NCBI RefSeq assembly: GCF_034259325.1
Contig: NZ_JAXIVS010000005.1
Location: 124,001-188,000 of the forward strand
Direction of reading: 5' to 3'
Source: Hyalangium ruber
Lineage (GTDB): Bacteria > Myxococcota > Myxococcia > Myxococcales > Myxococcaceae
DNA: 64,000 nucleotides
Positions within the stretch are counted from its first letter, which is position 1; every line of letters begins with the position of its first letter. This document shows positions 9,994-14,287 of the stretch, one piece after another. The notes under the pieces were generated by a model. The model ran no database searches. It was not told the origin of the DNA and worked only from the letters and a program-made list of their open reading frames with translations. The translations under genes and the position numbers were made by a program.

Positions 9994-10884
9994 TCAGCTC
10001 ACCACGGGCAGGGGGAAGCCCTGGGCGGCGGGCGCGGGCTTCGTCACCCCCGCGGCCTCGTTCATGCGGCCAGAGCGGAACGGCTCGAGGTCCACCGCCA
10101 CGAACTGGAAGCCCAGCTGCTTGAGCGCGGTGTTGATGCGCAGCCGAACCTCGACCGACATGAAGCGCTCGTACTCCTCCGCCGCCAGCTCGATGCGCGC
10201 CACCTCCTGGTGGTAGCGCACCCGGAACTGCCGGAAGCCCAGCCGGCGCAGCTCCGACTCCGCCTGAGCGATCTGGAACAGCCGCTCCCGCGTCACCGAG
10301 GTGCCGTACGGAATGCGCGAGGCCAGGCACGCCATCTGCGGCTTGTCCCACGTGGGCAGCCCCAGGTGGTGGCTCCAGGCGCGGATCTCGTCCTTCGTCA
10401 GCCCCGCCTGCGCCAGCGGCGAGCGCACCTGGTGCTCCTTGGCCGCCTTGTGCCCGGGCCGGTGATCCTTGAAGTCATCCGCGTTGAAGCCGTCCAGCAC
10501 CACCGCGTAGCCCAACTCCTGGCGGCGGGCCTCGCACAAGTCGTACAGCTCCGTCTTGCAGAAGTAGCAGCGGTTGGTCGGGTTGGCCGCGTACTGCGGG
10601 TTGGCCAGCTCGTTGCTCGTCACCACCTCGTGCCGCGCGCCCAGACGGGCGGCGAGCTGCCGCGCCTCCTGCTCCTCCTCGGGCGCCACCGAGGCCGACA
10701 GCGCCGTCACCGCCAGCGCCCGCTCGCCCAGCTCCTCCACCGCGATCTTCAGCACGAAGGTGGAGTCCACCCCGCCGGAGAACGCCACCAGCGCCGTGCC
10801 CTCAGCCCGGATCGCCGCGCGCATCGCCTCCAGCTTGGGGCGGGAGGACTCACACAGGGCCTGGATCTGCTCGGGGCTCAGCAT
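9994..10884 (-). CDS. larE: ATP-dependent sacrificial sulfur transferase LarE
   Basis: 296 aa. LarE inserts sulfur into the pyridinium dicarboxylate precursor of the nickel-pincer cofactor of lactate racemase. The PP-loop SGGVDST (36-42) binds ATP. NRCYFCKTELY contributes a CxxC (C106/C109), and C186 in KPQMACLASR aligns with the sulfur-donating cysteine of the family. ATG 10884 has AGGAAA about 7 nt upstream. larA, larB and larC are not in the window, so the Lar function cannot be confirmed locally; it may serve another sulfuration. The neighbouring genes upstream also concern sulfur activation and transfer. Confidence 0.9.
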   Translation of the reverse strand: MLSPEQIQALCESSRPKLEAMRAAIRAEGTALVAFSGGVDSTFVLKIAVEELGERALAVTALSASVAPEEEQEARQLAARLGARHEVVTSNELANPQYAANPTNRCYFCKTELYDLCEARRQELGYAVVLDGFNADDFKDHRPGHKAAKEHQVRSPLAQAGLTKDEIRAWSHHLGLPTWDKPQMACLASRIPYGTSVTRERLFQIAQAESELRRLGFRQFRVRYHQEVARIELAAEEYERFMSVEVRLRINTALKQLGFQFVAVDLEPFRSGRMNEAAGVTKPAPAAQGFPLPVVS

Positions 10885-10903
10885 GGCGTTTTTCCTAAAG
10901 CAA

Positions 10904-10936
10904 AGGGCCCCTGATTGCACGCGCAACCGGGGCCCT
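10904..10936 (-). terminator. Intrinsic terminator of the CysC-like gene
   Basis: AGGGCCCC (10904-10911) and GGGGCCCT (10929-10936) form an 8-bp stem. TTGC/GCAA pair inside the loop. On the minus strand it is followed by TTTGCTTT. It lies between the CysC-like stop and the larE start, so larE probably has its own promoter or relies on read-through. Confidence 0.75.
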
Positions 10937-10964: not shown

Positions 10965-11693
10965 CTACTTGCGCTTGGGGGTCTTCTTGGCCGCCGGAGC
11001 CGCCGGCTTCGCCACGCGGGCCGCGCGCGTCGCCGGGCGGGCCTTGGCACCCGTCCCCTTGCCGCCGCCGCCCTTGTCGGCCTTGGGCTCACCGCGCCGC
11101 GCCTGCTTGGCCACGGGGTTGGCCTTCATCTTCTTGCCGGTGATGATCTTCAGCTCGTCGCTCGTCACGTAGCCGAGGTCCAGCAGCGACTGGAAGATCT
11201 TCATCGCGCCGTCCTCCACCGCCTCGGTGTCGGAGTGGATCGTCACCTCGGGCGAGTTGGGCGGCTCGTACGGCTCGGTGATGCCGATGAAGTTGGGGAT
11301 CTCGCCGCTCAGGGCCTTCTTGTACTTGCCCGTGGAGTCGCGCGCGATGAGCGTCTCGGTGGGGCAGTCGACGTAGACCTCGACATAGCGGCCGATCTGG
11401 CGACGGTTCTCCTCGCGCCCGCTCTTGTAGGGGCTCACGCTCGGCACGAGCACCGCTACGTTGTTGCGGGTGAGGACCTGGGCCACATAGCCCAACCGGC
11501 GGACGATGGTGGAGCGCTCCTCTTTGGTGTCACCGAGGCCCTGCCAGAGATCGTCTCCGATCTCGCCCTCGTCGAGGATCTCCACATTGCGACCCACCTG
11601 GCGCAGCCGTGCGGCGATGTAGGCGGCCATGGTGGTCTTGCCGGTACCGTGCATGCCGGTCAGCCAGAGCGTGAAACCAGTGGTGCTGGGCAT
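10965..11693 (-). CDS. Divergent adenylylsulfate kinase (CysC-like) with basic tail
   Basis: 242 aa. P-loop GMHGTGKTT (13-21), SVSPYKSGRE and the GITEPYEPPNSPE block are APS-kinase signatures (phosphorylation of APS to PAPS). The usual LDGDxxR after the P-loop is replaced by LDEGEIGDDLW, so the canonical Arg that contacts APS is missing at this place. After about residue 190 there is a Lys/Ala/Pro-rich basic tail of some 50 aa absent from typical CysC. No sulfate adenylyltransferase is nearby. It may be a true PAPS-forming enzyme or a paralogue with another adenylylated substrate. It sits beside the CysO-type sulfur-carrier operon on the same strand. Confidence 0.85.
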   Translation of the reverse strand: MPSTTGFTLWLTGMHGTGKTTMAAYIAARLRQVGRNVEILDEGEIGDDLWQGLGDTKEERSTIVRRLGYVAQVLTRNNVAVLVPSVSPYKSGREENRRQIGRYVEVYVDCPTETLIARDSTGKYKKALSGEIPNFIGITEPYEPPNSPEVTIHSDTEAVEDGAMKIFQSLLDLGYVTSDELKIITGKKMKANPVAKQARRGEPKADKGGGGKGTGAKARPATRAARVAKPAAPAAKKTPKRK

Positions 11694-11864: not shown

Positions 11865-12341
11865 TCATTCCGTCCCCAGCGGAACCAGATGGTCGCGAAA
11901 ATCGCCATCTTGCCACCAGAAAAGCTGGGCTTCGGTGGCTCGGCCCTCCAGGACAGCAACCACCAGGTAGGACACACCCGGGAGTACGGGCAGGCCGGCA
12001 GGCGCGGCCTGGGCCCTGTCCTCGGCGGAGAAGCCCGCGAATCCATTCACGTGGGAGTGGAACACACACGCCACCTGCTCACCCAGGGCATCGGCCTCCT
12101 CGTTGACGGCGAGCCACTCCTGGAGCTCGAAGTGGTAGGCGGTGCGCGATGTATGGGGGAAGCGCACCGGATCGGCTGCGTGGTAACGATCATAGGCGTT
12201 GCGCAGGGGGCGCACGCGCCAGGGCCCACTCGGCCCGGCCCGGAGAATCACCCCGCAGCCCTCCTGGGGGTACATCGCCTCCAGGTGCCTGACAACGCCC
12301 GACAGATCCTCGGGAAGTCGGTTCAGCGGCACTTCGAGCAC
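11865..12341 (-). CDS. M67-family JAMM metallopeptidase (Mec-like)
   Basis: 158 aa. The JAMM zinc site is complete: E27 in YPQEGCGV, H95-S-H97, S105 and D108, matching HxH-x7-S-x2-D exactly. In Mycobacterium the homologous Mec protease releases cysteine from a CysO-cysteine adduct. Here it is the last gene of an operon with a CysO-like carrier, so the same role is the leading hypothesis. GTG 12341 has GGAG 8 nt upstream and overlaps the end of the preceding pseudo-E1 gene by 19 bp. It is probably cytosolic, as no signal peptide is present. Confidence 0.92.
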   Translation of the reverse strand: MLEVPLNRLPEDLSGVVRHLEAMYPQEGCGVILRAGPSGPWRVRPLRNAYDRYHAADPVRFPHTSRTAYHFELQEWLAVNEEADALGEQVACVFHSHVNGFAGFSAEDRAQAAPAGLPVLPGVSYLVVAVLEGRATEAQLFWWQDGDFRDHLVPLGTE

Positions 12342-12952
12342 CGCTGGAGCTCCATGTCGGTCACCCTGCCCGGCCCCTCGAGCCACCGGGCGCCCAGCTC
12401 CGGCCCCATCCCGAGTTGGAGCCGCTGGAACACCAGTGCCCCCAACGTCCCGAGCGCCACGCCGAGGATGCCCGTGGGTGGAGCCCCCAACGTGCGCACC
12501 GTCTCCCCGAAGCACCACACGCAGCCCTGGCTGCCGCGGAACACCACCGCGCCCCGGACATGGTCGCCCCCGAGCGCCACCCAGGGCGCCTCGCCCTTCC
12601 ACGCCGCGGGCAGTTGCGCGAGCCGGCCCCCGGCACGGGGACTCACGGCATCCGGGTTCACCTCCGGGAGCACCCGCGCCAGCACCTGCGCCGCGGACTG
12701 CCCCACCTCCTCGGCCGAGACGAGGAAGCCCGGCGCGGCGGGCCCCAGCTGCGCGTCCGTGGCCTCCACGGGCGTGCCTCCGGCGGCCAGGTACGCGGCG
12801 GCCGTGAGCACGGCGGGCCCCGCGCCCTCGAGCCGCGCCCCACCCTCCAGCAGCGCCTCCTGTCCGCGCCCGCCCACCTCCTTCAAGAGGATCTGGCGCG
12901 AGTAGCGAAGGATCTGGTCTTCCCGTAGGGCCACGGCGCTAGCCTCCGGCAA
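12323..12952 (-). CDS. Degenerate ThiF/MoeB (E1-like) protein, probable pseudoenzyme
   Basis: 209 aa. The start ILRYSRQILLKEVGG (14-28) is the classic MoeB/ThiF N-terminal Arg helix. The C-terminal half keeps both zinc pairs (C144-V-W-C147 and C205-S-K-C208) and the GILGVALGTLGALV helix. The Rossmann part is eroded: GAG is present at 43-45, but GGLGCP, the NLxRQ loop and the DATDN-type aspartates are absent, so it should not adenylate. Its start overlaps the stop of the sulfur-carrier gene by 14 bp. It could be the non-catalytic half of a heterodimeric E1 with the protein encoded at 13441-14175, which lacks exactly this N-terminal helix. Confidence 0.85.
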   Translation of the reverse strand: MPEASAVALREDQILRYSRQILLKEVGGRGQEALLEGGARLEGAGPAVLTAAAYLAAGGTPVEATDAQLGPAAPGFLVSAEEVGQSAAQVLARVLPEVNPDAVSPRAGGRLAQLPAAWKGEAPWVALGGDHVRGAVVFRGSQGCVWCFGETVRTLGAPPTGILGVALGTLGALVFQRLQLGMGPELGARWLEGPGRVTDMELQRCSKCR

Positions 12953-13211
12953 TGGCGGGGATGAGGGTGATGCGATCCGCGTCCTTCACGGGCGTCTCCA
13001 GCTCCTCCAGGAAGCGGATGTCCTCCTCGTTGAGGAACACGTTCACGTAGCGGCGCACGGCACCCTTGTCATCGAGCACGCGCGGGCCGATGCCGGGGAA
13101 ACGCTTCTCCAGCTCGCGCAGCACCTCGCCCACGGTGGCGCCCGGGGCGGCCACCTCGTCCTGGTTGCGGGTGAAGCCGCGCAGGGGCGTGGGAATGCGA
13201 ACCTTCGCCAT
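12939..13211 (-). CDS. cysO: CysO-like ubiquitin-fold sulfur carrier (MoaD/ThiS family)
   Basis: 90 aa ending IPAIAGG. The C-terminal Gly-Gly is the site that becomes a thiocarboxylate. The start MAKVRIPTPLRGFT, the RRYVNVFLNEEDIRF core and the ITLIPAIAGG end closely resemble mycobacterial CysO, more than MoaD or ThiS. CysO donates sulfur to O-phosphoserine through CysM, leaving CysO-Cys that a JAMM protease trims. E1, TusA and JAMM genes surround it; no cysM is in the window. ATG 13211 lies 2 bp after the tusA stop. Confidence 0.93.
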   Translation of the reverse strand: MAKVRIPTPLRGFTRNQDEVAAPGATVGEVLRELEKRFPGIGPRVLDDKGAVRRYVNVFLNEEDIRFLEELETPVKDADRITLIPAIAGG

Positions 13212-13213
13212 GC

Positions 13214-13456
13214 TCAACTCCCGTGCTTGCGGAGCAACAGCCGGTGGGTGCCGTCCGGCCGTGCCTCCAGGGTGAGGACCTCGTGGCCTTCCTCGCGCGC
13301 GCTGCGGGGAACGTTCTTCAGCGGCTCCTCGCCCTTGAGGAGCACCTCCAGCACCGCGCCCGCCGCGAGCGACTCCAGCTTGAGCTTGGTGCGCACGTAC
13401 GTCATGGGGCACACCTCGCGGGTGATGTCGATCGTGGCCGTCACCGTGTCGTGCAT
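13214..13456 (-). CDS. TusA-family sulfurtransferase
   Basis: 80 aa. The Cys-Pro motif is EVCPMTYVRTKLKLE (C16-P17), which defines TusA proteins: the Cys carries a persulfide from a cysteine desulfurase or other donor. In this operon it is well placed to hand sulfur to the adenylated CysO-like carrier, the job done in mycobacteria by the rhodanese domain of MoeZ. The ATG overlaps the end of the E1 gene by 16 bp, indicating translational coupling. The desulfurase-like gene at 26356 lies about 12 kb away. Confidence 0.93.
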   Translation of the reverse strand: MHDTVTATIDITREVCPMTYVRTKLKLESLAAGAVLEVLLKGEEPLKNVPRSAREEGHEVLTLEARPDGTHRLLLRKHGS

Positions 13457-14175
13457 CGCTCGGCCTCCTCGGGCGAAACGAGGGAGGGCGTCCGCCCGGG
13501 AGCACAGCTCGGACAATCGGGCGCGCGGTGTACGCGCACCGTCCGCCCCGAGAGCGAAGCCCCATCGAAGACATGTAGCATGGCCTCGCCCCGCGCCAGG
13601 CCCGGAGCGCCCGCGAGCCGCTCCAACGCGAGCAGGGCCTGGAACGCGCCCACCACCCCCGCCATCGAGCCCAGCACGCCCGCCTGGGCGCACGTCGGCA
13701 CGGAGTCCGGCGGAGGAGGCGCCTCGTACAGGCAGCGCAGGCAGGGCCCGTCCGGATCGACGCGCATCGCCTGGCCTTGCATGCGCAACACGCCCCCGTA
13801 GACCAGCGGCACGCCGGTGAGCACCGCCACATCGGACAGGAAGAACTTGGTGGCCGTGCCATCGGTGGCGTCGATGACGATGTCATGCGCGCGGAAGAGG
13901 GCCTCGGCGTTGCTGGCATCCACCCGCTCGGCCAGACCCTCGGTGCTCAGGTCGGGGAAGGCACGCGCCAGGCCCTCGGCGGCGGACTCGGCCTTGAGCC
14001 GACCCACGTCCGAGGTGCGGTGCCAGAGCTGGCGGTGGAGGTTCGTCACGTCCACGCGGTCCGGGTCCACCATCGTCACGTGCCCCACGCCGGCGTGCGC
14101 CAGCGCGAGCGACGCGGGACAGCCCAGGCCCCCCGCTCCCACCACCAACACTCGCGCCTCGTAAAGGCGGCCCAC
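13441..14175 (-). CDS. ThiF/MoeB/HesA-type E1 adenylyltransferase lacking the N-terminal Arg helix
   Basis: 244 aa. It should adenylate the C-terminal glycine of the sulfur carrier. Visible are GAGGLGCP (13-20), the NLHRQ loop (45-49), DATDG (102-106), the zinc pairs C145/C148 and C221/C224, and the conserved TCAQAGVLG. It begins at VGRLYEARVLVVG and so lacks the RYxRQ helix of MoeB/ThiF; no such sequence is encoded in frame upstream. GTG 14175 has GAGGAG 6-7 nt upstream. It is the first gene of a five-gene operon, followed by tusA, cysO-like, pseudo-E1 and JAMM. Confidence 0.92.
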   Translation of the reverse strand: MGRLYEARVLVVGAGGLGCPASLALAHAGVGHVTMVDPDRVDVTNLHRQLWHRTSDVGRLKAESAAEGLARAFPDLSTEGLAERVDASNAEALFRAHDIVIDATDGTATKFFLSDVAVLTGVPLVYGGVLRMQGQAMRVDPDGPCLRCLYEAPPPPDSVPTCAQAGVLGSMAGVVGAFQALLALERLAGAPGLARGEAMLHVFDGASLSGRTVRVHRAPDCPSCAPGRTPSLVSPEEAERCTTR

Positions 14176-14287
14176 GCAACACTCCTCTTCTTCAAACTTC
14201 CCCAGGGAGGCGGAACGAATATCCTCCGGCGCCGCTACGTCCCACCCTTGGGTAGCACACTTCCCCGCTTCACCCCCCAGCCCACAT

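Follow-up and report, generated by a model that had tools for sequence, protein, structure and literature searches.

This locus raises the question of why an operon for a single sulfur carrier should encode two E1-like proteins, each of which has lost what the other keeps. In the window, the 64,000-nucleotide stretch of DNA analysed from the 10.8 Mb genome of Hyalangium ruber, whose relatives are myxobacteria, five minus strand genes abut or overlap in the order E1–TusA–ThiS/MoaD–pseudo-E1–JAMM, with an APS kinase gene then following downstream (Table 1). With corrected starts, the intergenic junctions are overlaps or gaps of 2–4 bases, the pattern expected for co-translated partners. Adjoining the APS kinase gene is an ATP-pyrophosphatase-type protein (window positions 9994-10926, minus strand, PF00733/PF02540), which we take to resemble LarE-type sulfur transferases and which may thus be part of the same sulfur cluster.

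Table 1. Features of the operon and its flank, in window coordinates.
Feature	Position	Strand	Basis
Active E1, 244 aa from GTG; catalytic core lacking an N-terminal RYxRQ arm	13441..14175	-	PF00899 E 1.3e-63
Shine-Dalgarno-like AGGAG ahead of the E1 GTG start	14184..14188	-	sequence reading
TusA/SirA sulfurtransferase, overlapping the E1 end	13214..13456	-	PF01206 E 4e-20
ThiS/MoaD/SAMP1-like sulfur carrier, C-terminal GG	12939..13211	-	PF02597 E 9.1e-17; NCBIfam SAMP1 1.2e-16
Pseudo-E1, 203 aa from GTG; proposed trans-acting E1 subunit	12323..12934	-	family profile A1, AF2, folds
Pseudo-E1 arm: LREDQILRYSRQILLKEVGGRGQEALLE	12845..12928	-	most conserved part; lowest dN/dS
Arg19 codon CGC, equivalent of MoeB Arg14 / Uba4 Arg18	12896..12898	-	alignment
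JAMM/Prok-JAB peptidase, start overlapping the pseudo-E1 end	11865..12341	-	PF14464 E 3.1e-14
APS kinase (CysC), sulfate assimilation, next gene downstream	10965..11693	-	PF01583 E 1.9e-41

The first of the two E1-like proteins possesses a complete catalytic core. Its match to the Pfam ThiF domain (PF00899) scores 214.8 bits against a cut-off of 28.1, and the GxGGLG, DxD, NLxRQ, Lys and Asp motifs are all present and invariant in all 36 rows of alignment A4; by domain score and by the GxGGxG, NxxRQ, Lys and Asp residues, it belongs to the E1-like/ThiF superfamily. The domain match starts only at profile position 16, the Rossmann fold begins immediately after the GTG start at 14175, which AGGAG precedes by a few bases, and no RYxRQ motif was found in the translated in-frame stretch upstream. 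The original prediction that this protein is armless and begins directly at the Rossmann fold was thus borne out, including on its own proviso that no arm helix lie upstream in frame. The protein aligns nearly end to end with MoeB/ThiF with no insertion; catalytic-Cys and ubiquitin-fold domains are absent.

The pseudo-E1 keeps the RYSRQILL motif and both CxxC pairs (CVWC and CSKC) in the open reading frame at 12323-12952 on the minus strand; its GxGGxG position reads GAGPAV and its NLxRQ loop is gone, all as had been claimed. The 209-aa length given at first counts from a TTG at 12952; the likelier start is the GTG at 12934 (VALREDQ...), which matches MALREDQ in relatives and yields 203 aa. 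The catalytic Asp cannot be counted as lost with certainty, since an Asp aligns at that position in 13 of 22 pseudo-E1s, the window's own included. While the single sequence falls below the PF00899 cut-off (11.6 bits versus 28.1), profile A1 of the pseudo-E1 family matches ThiF at 1e-17 and MoeB at 6e-14, and the arm-containing part matches ThiF (PDB 1zfn, E 1.6e-7); family profile and fold together place the pseudo-E1 in the superfamily.

Which part of the pseudo-E1 is retained is informative. Only R19, G30, Q31 and G59 are invariant among the 28 pseudo-E1s of alignment A1, and the arm Arg is likewise present without exception in 78 distinct pseudo-E1 arms, a set that was found by the arm profile, which favours typical arms, and from which one spurious antisense fragment was set aside. 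By contrast, the zinc pairs that the original prediction had stressed proved dispensable and were rejected as a conserved core: both cysteines of the first pair are kept in 18 of 22 pseudo-E1s and the last one in 13 of 22, and the pairs are missing from shorter pseudo-E1s, unlike the arm Arg, present in 28/28. Arg19 of the pseudo-E1 aligns with MoeB Arg14. As described in passages on Uba4, its Arg18 is supplied by the second subunit, reaching the ATP site of the opposite protomer, and mutating Arg18 strongly reduces adenylation (PMC7527816); Uba4 Arg18 and MoeB Arg14 are equated because the numbering of Gly45/Arg77/Lys90/Asp134 (PMC7527816) differs throughout by 4 from that of MoeB in the corresponding passages of PMC12355090.

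Pooled dN/dS over 13 close genomes came to 0.21 for the whole pseudo-E1 and 0.23 for the E1; over the pseudo-E1 arm it was 0.054, as compared to 0.21–0.30 elsewhere. Purifying selection is strongest on the arm. These values contradict a pseudogene, and together with retention of the pseudo-E1 across ten families they leave almost no credence for a functionless, decaying duplicate, a reading that the loss of the catalytic loops and the variable length might otherwise invite.

We then asked how regularly the armless E1 and the arm-bearing protein occur together. Both are present in 59 of the 72 genomes examined, spanning 10 families of the phylum (f1, f2, f4–f9, f12 and f18). In 16 of these 59 pairs, a stop codon interrupts the E1 frame less than 27 residues upstream of the G loop, and hence an in-frame arm cannot be encoded. 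Conversely, in 59 full-length E1s the arm precedes the G loop by exactly 27 residues; as these were fetched by the arm pattern, they are not evidence alone, and a set retrieved with the E1 as query was used instead (60 loci, 30 from each of two retrievals; partners were called by the pseudo-E1 profile). When a partner was present, 23 of 23 E1s were armless, the arm profile finding nothing upstream of the G loop in any of them; when it was absent, 33 of 37 E1s were armed (Fisher p 7.5e-13, a value that ignores the relatedness of the genomes). Partnered E1s thus do not combine, as MoeB/ThiF-type enzymes do, an RYxRQ arm and an active site in one chain. The four armless, partnerless E1s comprise L084, which lies at the end of a contig of 6,222 bases; L097, which shows RYARQ by eye; L098, which reads RFESH; and L099, presumably of TcdA-type, which reads RWDRTG. 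Two of the 23 partners are themselves armless (L075 and L079, from genomes G128 and G129). L043 and L192, called armed by a looser regular expression, were read as a chance HHARL match.

Among the 13 genomes outside the pair class, three loci lie at contig ends (G024, G031, G110), one genome has an armless E1 (GLGALG) whose arm-bearing partner the pair scoring left uncounted (G048), and two possess open reading frames of 343 and 310 aa that match the E1 query and are taken to be full-length E1s miscounted as non-pairs (G037, G061). The E1s of four others are armed and partnerless (G052, G100, G163, G164), the arm has been lost in G128 and G129, and G073 is a true exception to the pairing. The match of the arm-containing part to ThiF and the recurrence of the split across the phylum are far beyond chance.

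The association also extends to loss. Ten genomes without a pseudo-E1 are also without the armless E1 (G007, G014, G018, G027, G028, G029, G033, G106, G126, G127), possessing only more distant, MoeB-like or other E1 matches. Neither the arm nor TusA is left in G128 and G129, whose E1s are also without NLxRQ and the TDG motif, with the reading frames still open; this pattern apparently represents a natural arm deletion accompanied by active-site decay. A frameshifted, hidden arm was sought in the other frames of the region inspected, and none was found. The loci concerned (L132, L133) may be described as a naturally decaying or repurposed pair.

Three observations count against an obligate E1 heterodimer: i) in G073 (L159), an E1 stands beside ThiS and JAMM genes with its arm divergent or missing beyond recognition, and no pseudo-E1 was found; ii) in G086 (L140), the pseudo-E1 arm is kept although the E1 has lost NLxRQ; and iii) in the tree, the partnerless armed E1 of G163 is placed within the armless E1s, at modest support values (90/90, 89/71). 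Arm retention can also reflect simply the place of the arm in the fold.

Two further readings of the pseudo-E1 were weighed against these data. In one, the armless E1 would form a homodimer that places another residue at the gamma-phosphate, and the pseudo-E1 would serve TusA, the carrier or JAMM as scaffold or adaptor. The full compact fold of the pseudo-E1, its zinc-type Cys cluster in many species, and the divergent arms that some E1-like proteins tolerate (the RWDRTG of the TcdA-type match and the RFESH of L098) are compatible with such a role, which we nevertheless consider unlikely, as conservation is focused on the arm and not on the rest of the protein, forms of 108–125 aa dispense with most of the remainder, and arm loss follows partner presence. 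In the other, the pseudo-E1 would pair with a housekeeping full-length MoeB/ThiF, or act as an inhibitor by holding the carrier, and would not serve the operon E1. The genome does encode further PF00899 proteins, one of them full length; however, a MoeB already carries an arm and would not need another, and the pseudo-E1 and the armless E1 co-occur, are lost together, decay together and lie near each other in a tight operon, rendering this possibility very slim.

Predicted structures were in line with a division between the two chains. AF2 models of the pseudo-E1 and the E1 had pLDDT values of 90.2 and 89.0, respectively; both AF2 alignments contain full-length E1s, so that the folds are not independent of homology. 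A VIA fold search matched the pseudo-E1 to ThiF, MoeB and SAE1 with Z of about 17 (17.7 over 195 residues, rmsd 2.9, for 1zkm_C), and in the VIA alignment with MoeB the pseudo-E1 is aligned from residue 2 and the E1 from residue 26. Across the 15 PDB entries of eukaryotic heterodimeric E1s found in both VIA tables, the best chain was the inactive subunit for the pseudo-E1 and the active subunit for the E1 in 15/15, a comparison limited to the best chain of each entry. Chain identities in this comparison come partly from chain lengths and a PDB match. The fold matches thus divide as in SAE1/UBA2 and APPBP1/UBA3, in keeping with the division of labour that the original prediction had drawn from SAE1-UBA2.

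Taken together, a model for the operon emerges. Gene order, complementary residue losses, co-occurrence, co-loss, co-decay, selection on the arm and the divided predicted folds point to the E1 and the pseudo-E1 being, with good probability, one obligate heterodimeric E1 for the operon's sulfur carrier, as the complementary losses had first suggested, an idea upheld in each of the comparative tests; from these observations we infer the contact between the chains, the role of the trans-acting Arg, the sulfur steps and the final product. In residues and pairing, the two proteins resemble a canonical AAD/IAD heterodimer, with one subunit catalytic and the other dead but arm-bearing. The E1 would bind ATP and adenylate the C-terminal GG of the ThiS-like carrier; the pseudo-E1, a catalytically dead paralogue, would dock where the second protomer of a MoeB-type dimer sits and insert Arg19 of its arm into the ATP site of the E1. 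TusA would deliver sulfur to form the carrier thiocarboxylate, which would feed cysteine synthesis, and the JAMM peptidase would free the product from the carrier.

How such a split could have arisen is suggested by a series of extant forms. In a metagenome-assembled genome from Planctomycetota (L239), the live E1 has an arm that has degenerated slightly (RYVRN), and the arm of its full-length dead E1 is intact; this locus (L239:2629-4483, live armed E1 then dead armed E1) could be an ancestral stage or a mis-binned contig. A search of Planctomycetota at E 1e-20 gave no other dead copy, the two matches among 246 genomes being the L239 genome and one with an ordinary armed E1. The armless E1s group with the live L239 copy, E1a, in the tree (91/98, an open fork with the armed E1 of G163 inside), and the dead copies with the other, E1b (100/99, with a long-branch warning). 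The dead subunit is about 230 aa long in family f5, mostly about 170–210 aa in f1 (about 90 in G005), and has an open frame of only 108–125 aa in f4 and part of f7, the arm being kept. These small pseudo-E1s retain the arm, the first strand-helix and the C-terminal helix, which, by analogy with the TcdA dimer interface, described in passages as formed by helices 1, 3, 4 and 8 (PMC4405576), may be the interface elements.

Every step of such a split would still have a living representative: live and dead armed twins in L239, full-length dead twins in one myxococcal family, and minimal arm proteins in others. We think it likely that a two-gene heterodimeric E1 arose in bacteria independently of eukaryotes, in that a MoeB-like E1 was duplicated, one active site was killed, the arm of the other copy was deleted, and the dead copy shrank to about 110 residues, an arginine-finger activator and dimer contact and little more. 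The independent origin, also part of the original prediction, is supported by the pseudo-E1 profile, which retrieves bacterial ThiF/MoeB and fungal Uba4 and did not retrieve SAE1 or APPBP1. In Nitrospirota, two full-length armed E1s flank the ThiS gene (L213, L223, L226, L228, L238, L242, L244, L245), and these twin-E1 operons are candidate heterodimers before any loss. A public record labelled Comamonas sp. KCTC 72670 (L182, 9.0-Mb genome) carries an operon of Myxococcaceae type with coordinates identical to those in G144 and is probably mislabelled.

That E1s became asymmetric, with a dead half and a live half, was central to the origin of ubiquitin signaling, and eukaryotic E1s show only the end point; bacteria seem to have reached a similar arrangement on their own, within sulfur metabolism, and intermediates are still extant. 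The system is small, and its proposed trans-arginine, sitting on a protein of its own, could be supplied or withheld, which would make the cost and benefit of a split active site directly measurable. A function is likewise proposed for a family whose window member scores below the Pfam cut-off. The open-licence PMC literature searched yielded no description of a bacterial E1 encoded by two genes in which the partner is little more than the arm. A 2009 E1-superfamily survey, reportedly by Burroughs, Iyer and Aravind, could mention such proteins.

Comparison with known systems sets the operon in context. It possesses the components of sulfur operon class 4e of Iyer et al. 2006 (PMC1779556), namely ThiS/MoaD, JAB, a rhodanese-less E1, SirA and sulfur genes, among them adenylylsulfate kinase; the passages on that class do not mention a second, inactive E1, the word Myxococcus is absent from the main text, and operons of this type are there predicted to put sulfate-derived sulfur onto the carrier. 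In mycobacteria, as outlined in passages of PMC3227635, MoeZ adenylates the carrier CysO, which CysM uses and Mec+ sets free; this too is a carrier with a carrier-freeing peptidase, but MoeZ is a single E1-rhodanese where the myxobacterial system has a split E1 and TusA. A cysteine-synthase-family (PALP) gene lies between the pseudo-E1 and JAMM genes in both relatives scanned (L054, L068); the window operon contains none, with ten PALP matches elsewhere in the genome. The predicted class 4e loading, the CysO analogy and these PALP genes suggest, less firmly than the E1 split, that the operon may serve cysteine synthesis.

Among E1s, MoeB-MoaD, the ThiF-ThiS homodimers and Uba4-Urm1 share fold, carrier type and residues and are nearest by sequence, yet hold the arm and the active site in one chain, whereas the myxobacterial pair divides them between two different chains. 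The SUMO E1 SAE1-UBA2 and the NEDD8 E1 APPBP1/NAE1-UBA3 likewise consist of an active subunit and an inactive paralogue, and in the fold search SAE1/APPBP1 are the counterparts of the pseudo-E1 and UBA2/UBA3 those of the E1. Unlike these, the myxobacterial E1 is without a catalytic-Cys insertion or ubiquitin-fold domain, the setting is a sulfur-carrier operon, the pseudo-E1 is without a profile match in sequence to SAE1 or APPBP1, and it is as short as 108–125 aa in some species. BilD, the E1 of the antiviral BilABCD operon, is bacterial and, in the passages describing it (PMC11354881), joins inactive and active adenylation domains as a pseudodimer; it is one fused chain with a Cys domain that acts in conjugation, whereas the myxobacterial pair is encoded by two genes in a sulfur pathway. 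As BilD is already known, what is new here is the two-gene, arm-swapped, sulfur-carrier form.
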